This document shows, in pieces, positions 2,870 to 10,279 of a DNA stretch of 64,000 nt. The DNA comes from Flavobacterium sp. 9AF (lineage in GTDB: Bacteria > Bacteroidota > Bacteroidia > Flavobacteriales > Flavobacteriaceae): NCBI RefSeq assembly GCF_902506265.1, contig NZ_LR733556.1, positions 983,106-1,047,105 on the forward strand, given 5' to 3'. The number at the start of each line of letters is the position of its first letter. Position 1 is the stretch's first letter. The position numbers and the translations under genes are program-made. The notes beneath the pieces are model-generated. The model saw nothing but the letters and a program-made list of their open reading frames with translations. It did no database searches and was not told where the DNA came from.

Positions 2870-3640
2870 ATGAATAGCGCAAATCCTGATAAAAGTACTA
2901 TCTTATTTTTGCCTGATATAGGATGCTCTTCTGAAATGTGGATGAACGTGGCAAATCATTATAAAGAACAATACAATTGTGTCTTGATAGATTTTGCAGG
3001 ATTTGCCAATACTCCAGCCATCAACGATTACTATACAAAACAATATGTAGAAGAAATTGAAAGTTATGTAAAGCAACAAAACTGGAGCAACCTTATTCTT
3101 TTCGGACATAATTTTGGTGGTTTTATTGCTTGTCAGTTAGCTGCCAATAAAAAAATAAATATTAGAAAAATAATCACTACCGATTTCTTTCCGAACCAAC
3201 GTCTAGTTCACGAGCAAAAATATAAGCCAAATAAAATTCCAGAGATAATTCAGCAATTAAAAGAAATTTATTGTTATGCACCACTAAAAGATTTTATTGC
3301 CTTTCAAAGGAAAATAATTCATACGATTTATACGAATGATAAAATGCTAGCTGAAAAAATATTGTCTTGGCAATTGGCTTCAGACCGAAAAACAATTATA
3401 AATGTATTAATCAATCAATTAACAACAGATTTATATCCATATTTAAAAAACAATGAGATTCCATGGCTCAATTTTAATGTAGGAAGAACATTCGAGAAAA
3501 AAGCAGAAATACACACGTTAGAACGATATATAAATTCTAAAAATATCTCACAAATAACTACTCATCATTCTAAAACCTTTTTTTTTATTGATAATGAAAA
3601 TTGGTTCATCAAAAAAACAAAAAAATTTATAAACAATTAA
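2870..3640 (+). CDS. Alpha/beta-hydrolase-fold protein lacking the nucleophile
   Basis: A 256-residue protein with the order of a small alpha/beta hydrolase: an early strand and oxyanion region (ILFLPDIGCSSEMW), a second strand with DFAGFANTP, the nucleophile elbow at ILFGHNFGGF, and a C-terminal strand-helix end. The elbow normally reads G-H-S-x-G-G; here it reads G-H-N-F-G-G, so the catalytic Ser is Asn. The C-terminal position where GHF with the catalytic His is expected reads HHSKTFFFID, which also looks altered. The frame is intact, so this is probably a non-enzymatic or altered member rather than a pseudogene. No signal peptide is visible. It lies just upstream of the two duplicated lipoproteins. 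Partner and substrate are unknown. Confidence 0.7.
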   Translation: MNSANPDKSTILFLPDIGCSSEMWMNVANHYKEQYNCVLIDFAGFANTPAINDYYTKQYVEEIESYVKQQNWSNLILFGHNFGGFIACQLAANKKINIRKIITTDFFPNQRLVHEQKYKPNKIPEIIQQLKEIYCYAPLKDFIAFQRKIIHTIYTNDKMLAEKILSWQLASDRKTIINVLINQLTTDLYPYLKNNEIPWLNFNVGRTFEKKAEIHTLERYINSKNISQITTHHSKTFFFIDNENWFIKKTKKFINN

Positions 3641-3651
3641 ATAAACAAAAC

Positions 3652-4425
3652 ATGAAAAATTTAATCTTATTTACAGCATTCCTTTTAACACTTATTTCGT
3701 GTGAATCAGACGATTCATCATTAAAAAAAGATTTACTAATACAAGAAACAATTAAAAACCTGGATCTAAATACAATAGAAAATTGGAAATACGAATACAA
3801 CTCAAATAATTTAATAAGTGGACATCAATATTTCAAAAATTCTCAATTGATGTATAATTACATATACAGATATAATTCAAACAATCAATTAATAGAACTT
3901 GAGAGAGACATGACAGAGCCTAATGAAGTTTCTAAAACCAAATATTATTATAATTCAGATGGTTATGTTATTAAAGAAGAAGATTATAGAAATAATGGAG
4001 AGTTATCAGCAATTTATGATTGGGATTATTCTAATTTAAATTTAGTCAAACTGACACAAAAAAACACACAAAATCAATTAATTCTCACAACATATTATAC
4101 TATTTTAAACAATAATATTCAGAATATAAAATATGATTATGCAGATCCAAGCATAAATGATTCTCAATATGATTTTCAATCTTTTGATTCCAAAACTTTT
4201 AGAAAATCTAAAATGCCTCTATTAAATCACTTATCTAATGAAAAGTTGAACACAAACAATCCTTTAATTGCTATTAGAAAAAATGCTTTAAATGGAGACA
4301 TCTATGAAAATTACAAATATGATTACCAATTTGATGAAAAAAACAATTATAAAACTGTTAATGTTTACAATCAATTAAATGACCAGTTGAAATATGTTTG
4401 TGAATATGAATGGAAAAATAATTAA
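3652..4425 (+). CDS. Probable surface lipoprotein, first of a tandem pair
   Basis: A 257-residue lipoprotein. The ATG at 3652 is chosen because it gives a clean lipoprotein signal (MKNLILFTAFLLTLISC); the frame runs further upstream to a TTG at 3601, but that would overlap the hydrolase gene and bury the signal. After the acylated Cys comes ESDDSS, which resembles the acidic lipoprotein export signal described in Flavobacterium and relatives for lipoproteins displayed on the cell surface. The body is rich in Asn, Tyr and Lys with short repeated phrases (YNSNNLIS, YNSNNQLIELE, YYYNSDGYV), like the YD-type beta-hairpin repeats of Rhs-related proteins. The function is not known. A paralogue follows immediately. 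Confidence 0.8.
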   Translation: MKNLILFTAFLLTLISCESDDSSLKKDLLIQETIKNLDLNTIENWKYEYNSNNLISGHQYFKNSQLMYNYIYRYNSNNQLIELERDMTEPNEVSKTKYYYNSDGYVIKEEDYRNNGELSAIYDWDYSNLNLVKLTQKNTQNQLILTTYYTILNNNIQNIKYDYADPSINDSQYDFQSFDSKTFRKSKMPLLNHLSNEKLNTNNPLIAIRKNALNGDIYENYKYDYQFDEKNNYKTVNVYNQLNDQLKYVCEYEWKNN

Positions 4426-4519: not shown

Positions 4520-5290
4520 ATGAAAAAAACAATCTTATTTACAGCATTCCTTTTAACACTTATTTCTTGTGAATCAGACGATTCATCATTAAAAAAAGAT
4601 TTACTAATTAGTGAGACCACAAAAAATTTAGAAGAAAATATAACTAAAACTTGGAAATATGAATATAATTCAAACAATTTAATCAGTAATTATCAATATT
4701 TCCTGAATTCTGAACTTGTTTCCACCTTTAATTACGCTTATAATTCAAATAATCAATTAATTGAACTTGAAAAAGAAACTAATAATCCAAATGAAATTTC
4801 GAAAACTAAATATTATTATAATTCAGAAGGTTATGTTATTAAAGAAGAAGATTATAGAAATAATGGAGAACTATACGCTATCTATATGTGGGATTATTCA
4901 AATCCAAGTCTTGTCAAATTAACTGGAAAAACTGTACTAGATGAGTTAATTGTAACTACTTATTATACTATTTTAAACAATAATGTACAACAGATAAAAT
5001 ATGATTATGCTAACCCTAATACAATTGATTTTCAATATGATTTCCAACAATTTGATTCAAGAAATTTTAAACGTTCTACAATGCCATTGATAAATCTAAT
5101 CAACCCTAAATTAAATGCAAATAATCCATCGATTGCTATTAGAAAAAATGCCAATAATGGAGAAATTTATGATCATTACCTTTATGATTATGAATTTAAT
5201 GAAGATGGTAATTATAAAAAAATAAATATATACAACCAATTAAACAATCAATTAAAATATGTTTGCGAATATGAGTGGGTAAATAAATAA
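4520..5290 (+). CDS. Probable surface lipoprotein, second of a tandem pair
   Basis: A 256-residue paralogue of the preceding gene, with the same signal and anchor (ending LISC, then ESDDSS) and the same Tyr/Asn-rich repeats (YEYNSNNLIS, YNSNNQLIELE, YYYNSEGYVIKEED). The two genes are nearly identical at DNA level across the signal-peptide region and in a central block, but clearly diverged elsewhere. The pair therefore arose by tandem duplication, and some segments are either constrained or exchanged by gene conversion. A strong hairpin follows at 5338-5378. The function is unknown; the likely location is the outer face of the outer membrane (inference from the signal). Confidence 0.8.
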   Translation: MKKTILFTAFLLTLISCESDDSSLKKDLLISETTKNLEENITKTWKYEYNSNNLISNYQYFLNSELVSTFNYAYNSNNQLIELEKETNNPNEISKTKYYYNSEGYVIKEEDYRNNGELYAIYMWDYSNPSLVKLTGKTVLDELIVTTYYTILNNNVQQIKYDYANPNTIDFQYDFQQFDSRNFKRSTMPLINLINPKLNANNPSIAIRKNANNGEIYDHYLYDYEFNEDGNYKKINIYNQLNNQLKYVCEYEWVNK

Positions 5291-9364: not shown

Positions 9365-9430
9365 ATTACAATTTGACAATCCAACTATTTTAAAAAAAAC
9401 AAAAATAGTTGGATATCAAACCTTTCAATT

Positions 9431-9805
9431 TTAAATTTTTCCCGAAATTAAATTCTTATATTTATTTAACAATGCCTTTGTCATTCCTAAATTTGATTTT
9501 GTAGAATCAACAGCTAAATAAATAAAATATTGATTGTCATCAGAAACATCTATTATATGAATTTGACCACTTAGAGTAATCAGTATATTATCGATAGATT
9601 GATTCAATTTCAGTGCTTCAATAGCTTTAATTTTAGCTTTAACAACTTCAAGATTGTAAGCAGATGCTAATTCAGGATCAAAATCTGGCATTATAGAGTC
9701 AGAATAATAAGAAATTCCACTTTTAACTTCTGTTATAGCTACAGCAATGTAACCCGCAACATTTTTCTTCAACTCTTCACCAAATTGGCTTAAAAAATCT
9801 GACAT
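9431..9805 (-). CDS. Roadblock/LC7-like small protein
   Basis: A 124-residue soluble protein. Its predicted order is helix (FLSQFGEELKKNV), two strands (GYIAVAITEVKSG, then ISYYSDS), a long helix (PELASAYNLEVVKAKIKAI), two strands (NILITLSGQIHIIDV, YFIYLAVDS) and a last helix (MTKALLNKYKNLI). That is the roadblock/LC7 (MglB-like) topology, a fold usually found as a dimer that regulates small GTPases or other signalling partners. The assignment comes from the pattern and not from a sequence match, so it is moderate. No GTPase gene lies nearby. It is divergent from an HTH regulator across a 123-base region with a symmetric pair of sites, which suggests it is the regulated partner. Confidence 0.6.
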   Translation of the reverse strand: MSDFLSQFGEELKKNVAGYIAVAITEVKSGISYYSDSIMPDFDPELASAYNLEVVKAKIKAIEALKLNQSIDNILITLSGQIHIIDVSDDNQYFIYLAVDSTKSNLGMTKALLNKYKNLISGKI

Positions 9806-9840
9806 AATTTTTGTTTTATTAAATTAACTAATTAATTCCT

Positions 9841-9913
9841 AAATTTGCATAACAAGGAATATTTATTCATTTTTTTGTACAAATGTAAATTATTTTGAAT
9901 GCTATGCAAATTT
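9841..9913. promoter_or_regulatory. Pair of 11-bp inverted half-sites in a divergent promoter region
   Basis: AAATTTGCATA at 9841-9851 and its exact reverse complement TATGCAAATTT at 9903-9913 flank the promoter region shared by the roadblock-like gene (minus) and the HTH regulator gene (plus). The right half-site contains the -33 TTG of the minus-strand promoter. Inference: operator sites for the adjacent HTH protein. Confidence 0.6.
9880..9909 (-). promoter_or_regulatory. Promoter of the roadblock-like gene (TTG-N19-TACATTTG)
   Basis: Read on the minus strand, TTG (9909-9907), 19 bases, then TACATTTG (9887-9880) matches the full Flavobacterium promoter consensus. The start codon is 74 bases downstream at 9805. 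Confidence 0.65.
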
Positions 9914-9928
9914 TAACAAACATTTTTA

Positions 9929-10279
9929 ATGGATAATTTTAACGAATTAGGAATAAGATTTTACAAATACCTAAAAACCAAAGGTTTAGGTATAAATGAT
10001 ACAGCAAAATTATTAGGGTTATCGGGTAGTCAAATTAGCAATGTAAAGAATGGAAAAGTTTTTGGTACAGATAAAATGTTCAAAATATTGAATGAATTTA
10101 AAGATTTAGATGCAAATTGGTTATTCCGAGGTGTTTCAAAAGAGATTCCCCACGTAGACATTAATCATTTAGATTATGTGATTGAGTTACAAAAAGAAAG
10201 AATAATTGATTTAAAGAAAGAAAATGCCGAATTAAAAAAAGAAATAAAAGCTTTACAATCAAAACAAGCTAATTTATAA
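9929..10279 (+). CDS. XRE-like helix-turn-helix regulator with coiled-coil tail
   Basis: A 116-residue putative DNA-binding protein. Residues 1-70 form a small helical domain in which LGINDTAKLLGLSGSQISN reads as a helix-turn-helix of the lambda-repressor/XRE class (the recognition helix would begin at SGSQISNVKNG). DLDANWLFRGV is a common ending of this domain. Residues 80-113 form a charged coiled coil (ELQKERIIDLKKENAELKK) that probably dimerises or multimerises it. No sensor domain is visible. It is divergent from the roadblock-like gene, and the shared region carries an exact 11-bp inverted pair, so auto-regulation and control of that neighbour are likely (inference). Phage origin is possible but no phage genes are nearby. 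Confidence 0.75.
   Translation: MDNFNELGIRFYKYLKTKGLGINDTAKLLGLSGSQISNVKNGKVFGTDKMFKILNEFKDLDANWLFRGVSKEIPHVDINHLDYVIELQKERIIDLKKENAELKKEIKALQSKQANL

Follow-up and report, generated by a model that had tools for sequence, protein, structure and literature searches.

Flavobacterium sp. 9AF carries a compact divergent gene pair, kept in seven relatives and present at two genomic sites, in which the gene for a protein resembling the roadblock fold (RB) stands back to back with the gene for an XRE-type protein (XRE) that is kin to the repressors of Mu-like phages, across a gap whose promoter core is shared with a Mu-like prophage. We consider it probable that the pair is a Mu-type immunity switch in which the early genes have been replaced by the roadblock-fold gene, with XRE repressing RB. 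The features, numbered within the window (the whole 64-kb stretch of DNA that was analysed), are as follows.

9431..9805, minus strand: RB, roadblock-fold protein of 124 aa, assigned by fold similarity; one of three paralogs in the genome
9840..9847, plus strand: TAAATTTG, predicted -7 box of the XRE promoter (TAnnTTTG), overlapping the left copy
9841..9851, plus strand: left copy of AAATTTGCATA, not conserved as a site
9880..9887, minus strand: TACATTTG, predicted -7 box of the RB promoter; TAnRTTTG in 8/8 RB-linked gaps checked and in the F. geliluteum prophage
9892..9899, no strand: ATTTTGAA, block in the RB promoter spacer, identical in all 9 aligned sequences, the Mu-like prophage included
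9893..9910, no strand: TTTTGAATGCTATGCAAA, candidate operator, an imperfect inverted repeat containing part of the right copy
9903..9913, minus strand: right copy of AAATTTGCATA, partly conserved, as a piece of the RB promoter
9907..9909, minus strand: -33 TTG of the RB promoter, N19 from its -7 box
9929..10279, plus strand: XRE-type repressor-like protein of 116 aa (HTH_19, E 1.3e-11)

The gene pair at two sites and the phage kinship of XRE

A scan with the XRE alignment, taking one genome per species from 84,980 species, found seven loci, with XRE identities of 91% in Flavobacterium sp. J27, 84% in F. jejuense, 80% in F. psychrophilum, 76% in F. davisii, 74% in both F. columnare and F. covae, and 54% in F. 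geliluteum. RB lies divergently next to XRE in six of the seven, including the F. columnare locus (L128), where the contig ends 131 bp before XRE and the first RB codons are still visible; the seventh, in F. geliluteum, is a Mu-like prophage region. Among 398 genomes of the genus, 81 have some XRE match at E<=0.001, and three have one above 70% identity: the window's own genome, G278, in which the pair is present, and G393, whose locus has the layout of the F. columnare locus. Relatives with both genes, besides the window, number seven.

The pair occupies a first site between an ABC-F gene and a methyltransferase gene in the window, J27, F. jejuense and F. psychrophilum, and a second site beside a RecG-like gene (a name read from the sequence by eye) in F. 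covae, F. davisii, F. columnare and G278. The ABC-F to methyltransferase distance in the window is 1012 bp. At eight of 30 methyltransferase loci (the window's own included) the ABC-F gene is 0-194 bp away with neither RB nor XRE between, four others have gaps of 638 to 1041 bp that also contain neither gene, and in the remaining 17 the ABC-F end is not seen next to the methyltransferase gene. Because of the empty-site loci and the second location beside the RecG-like gene, the two genes behave as a single unit with two locations. The two-gene regulatory module of the original prediction is upheld to the extent that the unit is compact, kept in seven relatives and found at two genomic sites; its inverted pair of matched sites is not (see below). 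The genes are divergent, and so do not form the co-directed operon typical of type II toxin-antitoxin systems. Between the convergent ABC-F and RB genes, at about 9380-9413 of the window, there is an inverted repeat (TCCAACTATTTT / AAAATAGTTGGA) that, judged by eye, is probably a shared terminator, and farther away two similar lipoprotein-like genes lie in tandem (3601-4425 and 4520-5290).

The AlphaFold model of XRE (pLDDT 78) has an HTH head of five helices followed by a single long helix at the C-terminus (residues 78-115), and the protein has no effector domain. Zipper-like heptads can be picked out by eye in the helix (L95, L102, L109; I85, I92, N99, I106), and because of them XRE is likely to dimerise through it. 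The original description of an XRE-like regulator with a coiled-coil tail thus agrees with the HTH_19 match and with the heptads seen on the model; its kinship with Mu-type phage repressors had been missed. In a tree of 58 proteins (8 RB-linked, 24 Mu-linked, 19 accompanied by a small ner-like gene, 7 of other kinds), the RB-linked XREs form one clade (SH-aLRT 96), the sister of which is the Mu-linked repressor of F. geliluteum (SH-aLRT 96), a topology compatible with transfer in either direction. This F. geliluteum relative borders the early region of a Mu-like prophage, divergent from a 66-aa ner-like gene, in a region that also encodes relatives of MuA (phrog_310, E 8.5e-53) and MuB (phrog_296, E 9.8e-42) and an ATPase (phrog_6891, E 7.9e-49).

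The F. geliluteum MuA, used as a query, matched nine viral contigs and 32 of the 398 genus genomes, and had no relative in the source genome. A related XRE is divergent to the early genes at 26 of 31 MuA loci, a set that includes near-copies and, as L156, the F. geliluteum prophage itself; of the remaining loci, L149, L151 and L152 are cut, L161 has none within its flank, and L177 has another HTH protein. The window XRE is therefore kin to repressors that are divergent from ner-MuA-MuB, and it is flanked on both sides by host-type genes instead of marking the end of a transposable prophage that encodes MuA and MuB. A single Mu-linked repressor is close to the RB-linked XREs (54-63% identity). 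Phage records gave six weak matches to XRE, and among viral contigs 102 stretches matched a pattern for XRE relatives, none of which encodes one.

RB and the family of its paralogs

RB has no significant Pfam, NCBIfam or PHROG family, no match to Robl_LC7 (PF03259) among families up to E 10, and no match in phage records; its profile had no significant match among PDB sequences and none by hhalign to Robl_LC7-type neighbours (probability 1.1 percent). Its AlphaFold model, although of low confidence (pLDDT 55.7), resembles the roadblock fold: Foldseek returned five PDB matches at E<=1e-3, consisting of four chains of Asgard Roadblock3 (9jue) and one Ragulator chain (5y3a), followed by MglB (6hjm, E 1.9e-3) and MglC (7ct3, E 8.1e-3).

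At least one RB match is found in 100 of the 398 genus genomes, and the source genome has three paralogs, two of them directly behind Robl_LC7 genes that are the genome's only two Robl_LC7 matches; the RB of the window is the only one of the three with no Robl_LC7 gene directly upstream. RB paralogs are also directly behind Robl_LC7 or LC7-like genes at L038, L039, L040, L041, L048 and L120, and the adjacency of the two gene types suggests two-gene roadblock heterodimers in the larger Flavobacterium genomes. Other settings of the paralogs include a zinc-ribbon transposase-like gene (by eye), tandem arrays of four (L106:5335-7862 and L108:1-3105, in genomes of the F. columnare group), and an adjoining gene for a secreted Ppx/GppA-like protein (L112:5962-7041, L118 and L049), in many cases close to MFS, PAS and GNAT genes. 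In a tree of 70 rows, from which identical proteins and those shorter than 110 aa had been removed beforehand, seven RBs are XRE-linked and most paralogs have no XRE. The XRE-linked RBs fall into two clusters, and a single clade narrowly escaped rejection (AU p 0.055, 68 rows, two long-branch rows having been removed); because they occupy two places in the tree, XRE may have acquired its RB partner on two occasions, or the partner may have undergone conversion.

Distant RB relatives (33-42% identity) are carried on plasmids of Hymenobacter, Acinetobacter, Comamonas, Agarilytica and Streptomyces (21 records matched). Of five plasmid regions that were read, four have an annotated roadblock/LC7 gene nearby, and two of these, from Comamonas and Agarilytica, have a Ras-like GTPase gene as well; at the plasmid loci L275, L276, L278 and L279, where RB family members are near roadblock/LC7 genes, a BLUF photoreceptor gene was seen once in addition to the two Ras-like GTPases. 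The statement in the original prediction that no GTPase is near the roadblock gene was borne out, since no small GTPase gene occurs among the neighbouring open reading frames. Ras-like GTPase linkage is likewise lacking in the genome as a whole: PF00071 and PF08477 match only open frames of at least 297 aa, none of Ras size, and the Comamonas plasmid GTPase found nothing significant in the source genome. The RB family, which is widespread, is perhaps an unnamed second subunit of roadblock/LC7 modules, and our working guess for RB itself is a dimeric adaptor that would join Robl_LC7 partners encoded elsewhere in the genome. Judged by titles and the openings of abstracts, the literature listed describes no Flavobacterium roadblock protein; among the matches listed, publications on the roadblock domain with XRE or helix-turn-helix proteins, or on Robl_LC7 in Bacteroidetes, do not describe the RB/XRE pair.

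The inverted 11-bp pair and the promoters of the gap

As originally described, AAATTTGCATA at 9841-9851 is repeated as its exact reverse complement at 9903-9913 with 51 bases between, and these are its only exact copies in the 64-kb window; the right copy does cover the -33 TTG of a complete minus-strand promoter (TTG at 9909-9907, N19, TACATTTG at 9887-9880). The gap between RB and XRE is 123 bp long with 16% G+C, and exact inverted repeats of at least 11 bases arose in 339 of 5000 dinucleotide shuffles of it, or in 233 of 5000 if a loop of at least 20 is demanded; within the window there are 19 such exact repeats of at least 11 bases within 130 bp, eight of them with a loop of at least 20. 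Because of these shuffle and window counts the inverted pair is at best mildly unusual, even before the number of gaps looked at is taken into account, and it is probably due to chance.

The original prediction had named absence of the inverted pair from relatives that keep both genes as the observation that would speak against it, and this is what comparison of related genomes gave: the gene pair is kept, and the exact inverted pair occurs in none of the seven relatives with both genes. Between the two copies, 10 of 11 positions match in J27 and 7 of 11 in F. jejuense, and the left copy is missing from the other five (F. psychrophilum, F. covae, F. davisii, F. columnare and G278). In an alignment of the gaps of the four same-site species, in which 62 of 123 positions are identical overall, 0 of 11 positions of the left copy and 7 of 11 of the right copy are identical. 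Most simply, the right copy belongs to the RB promoter and the left copy is the -7 box of the XRE gene, the best reading of that copy and one which had been overlooked. The looping proposed between the copies, by which the regulator would bind both as paired sites and bend the intervening DNA, has in its favour that both copies are present and exact and that one covers the -33 TTG; with the exact pair in 0/7 relatives, equalled in 233/5000 shuffles, and with a -7 box to explain the left copy, it is very improbable and was discarded. A clean palindromic operator with the right copy as one arm was also considered over nine sequences, where it found only partial support.

In F. psychrophilum, TAnnTTTG is the -7 element recognised by sigma-A and spans -12 to -5, according to the accessible text of PMC9723704. 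On the RB side, 19 to 22 bases separate the TTG from the -7 box in relatives, by a visual count on the alignment. On the XRE side, a plus-strand TAnnTTTG is present at about the corresponding place in seven of eight RB-linked regions, the exception being F. psychrophilum, and no TTG precedes the window's box at the usual N19 spacing. By the -12 to -5 rule, XRE transcription would start near 9852 and run right, and RB transcription near 9875 and run left; with starts so placed, the predicted promoters face each other and the transcripts would overlap by about 24 bases.

The promoter core at 9880-9899 is identical at 18 of 20 positions in the four same-site species, and its elements (TAnRTTTG and ATTTTGAA) are kept in all eight pairs as well as in the prophage of F. 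geliluteum. That prophage and F. psychrophilum have an exact 18-mer in common in their gaps (0/2000 shuffles as good), whereas the longest exact word shared by the prophage and window gaps is 12 bases (46/2000 shuffles as good), and those shared by the prophage with other RB-linked gaps are 8-12 bases (40 to 1276 of 2000 shuffles as good). ATTTTGAA is likely to be half of a candidate XRE operator; the candidate as a whole (TTTTGAATGCTATGCAAA) is tentative because its symmetry is well kept in only some relatives. Compared with the operators that Mu-type repressors have between divergent promoters, the gap thus offers, at the level of sequence, a conserved core with weak symmetry. Genome-wide, TTTTGAATNNNATNCAAA is found at 69 places with at most one mismatch versus eight for the reversed pattern, a count kept out of the evidence because the reversed-pattern control differs in composition. 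The core pattern also occurs in 59 stretches of viral contigs, taken as chance occurrences, in which tblastn on the stretches examined found no XRE or MuA relative; the only Mu-like element in which the core was seen is the prophage of F. geliluteum, no Mu-like phage carrying it having turned up among those viral contigs.

More distant loci bear on where the operator may lie. At 19 of 26 loci with a distant XRE (L079-L104), a small gene on the opposite strand is related to the 66-aa gene of F. geliluteum, and the 18 of these with a short gap have CAAATATA followed by a TAAGATATTTCTTA-like palindrome, with a second similar element about 30 bases on, subject to some variation. These repeats look like tandem operators and are at the same position relative to the -7 box as ATTTTGAA, with different letters, an arrangement that supports the placing proposed for the operator in the window.

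A proposed switch, its rivals and known systems

In the switch that we favour, XRE, as a relative of phage repressors, would dimerise through its zipper-like C-terminal helix, bind the conserved core in the RB promoter spacer (about 9880-9910) and exclude RNA polymerase, so that RB synthesis would be confined to times of scarce or inactive XRE; such repression of RB is likely. XRE would be transcribed from its own promoter at the left copy, aimed at the RB start. In face-to-face phage switches, opposed transcripts run into each other, and it is plausible that the RB and XRE promoters interfere in the same manner, each dampening the other as their transcripts collide. RB would stand in place of the phage genes ner, MuA and MuB, the cassette having been inserted or retained as a unit at two host sites, with ATTTTGAA governing RB repression and AAATTTGC the strength of the XRE promoter. 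Several observations weigh against this switch: pairing in the 18-bp candidate operator is good in only some relatives, F. psychrophilum aside, the gaps have just a short exact word in common with the prophage, a single Mu-linked repressor is closely related, no TTG stands at the expected distance from the XRE -7 box, the XRE-linked RBs are in two places of the tree, and polymerase contacts alone could conserve the promoter letters.

Another reading is that XRE serves as domesticated immunity, still reading the operators of related Mu-like phages and blocking their early genes, with RB as passenger or output. The sister relationship to a Mu-like repressor, the stretch SGSQ[IV]SN[IV]xNGKVFG that is almost the same in the phage and host forms of XRE, the 18-bp exact core common to the F. 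psychrophilum and prophage gaps, and the MuA relatives in 32/398 genus genomes are all consistent with it, but it would leave the retention of RB unexplained, the source genome has no MuA relative, and neither XRE nor MuA relatives accompany the core pattern in the 59 viral contigs; as a full account it is unlikely. Control could instead run from RB to XRE, RB acting for example as an anti-repressor on the coiled coil in a protein-level switch. Roadblock folds are dimer-forming interaction modules, and the two genes have stayed together as a unit at both sites; with most RB paralogs lacking an XRE, and only seven XRE-linked in the 70-row tree, we regard this as rather unlikely. That RB and XRE are ordinary neighbours, independent genes with divergent promoters and an XRE that acts elsewhere, would fit the commonness of XRE genes and the F. 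geliluteum relative without RB; persistence of the pair at two sites, with the empty site seen, makes it quite unlikely.

The favoured switch, if right, is a phage lysogeny switch rewired to a host gene, of which the phage and host forms can be compared side by side. A fuller version, possible if doubtful, is that the phage repressor and early promoter were kept while the early genes were swapped for a roadblock-fold gene, that the cassette then came to be at two sites, and that the operator of the phage may still be recognised by the repressor, in which case the host roadblock gene and a superinfecting Mu-like phage would answer to one control. RB moreover points to a roadblock-fold family missed by the family libraries searched, some of whose members, in other phyla, lie close to genes for LC7 proteins and Ras-like GTPases.

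Among known systems, the MglB and MglC proteins of Myxococcus xanthus (Roadblock/LC7) resemble RB in predicted fold, and distant RB relatives are near LC7 and Ras-like GTPase genes on plasmids; RB differs in that it does not match Robl_LC7 and has no GTPase gene in its neighbourhood, nor was a GTPase of Ras size found in its genome. The XRE regulators of phiCbK and Caulobacter are likewise a family found in phage and host chromosomes, with host targets, but belong to another phylum and phage type, and the abstract mentions no roadblock gene (PMC10688885). The lone pairs at L079-L104 share with the window a phage-like divergent arrangement with conserved gap repeats and no phage genes seen beside it, but their partner is a 64-84 aa ner-like protein, their operator letters differ and their XREs are about 30-38% identical; they are possibly relic or domesticated phage immunity regions. 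From the immunity regions of Mu-like phages of Bacteroidota, the window differs in having RB in place of ner, MuA and MuB, host genes on both sides, and an XRE of 116 aa without the longer C-terminal part of many phage repressors. These regions (the F. geliluteum prophage, the cultured Winogradskyella phage Peternella_1, which has the same gene order as the MuA loci, and the F. columnare phage fF4, described in the available part of PMC7761591 as having a putative repressor ahead of its transposase genes) are alike in placing a repressor with a related XRE head ahead of the early genes, divergently across a short gap in the loci read, and that of the F. geliluteum prophage shares its promoter core with the RB/XRE gaps.
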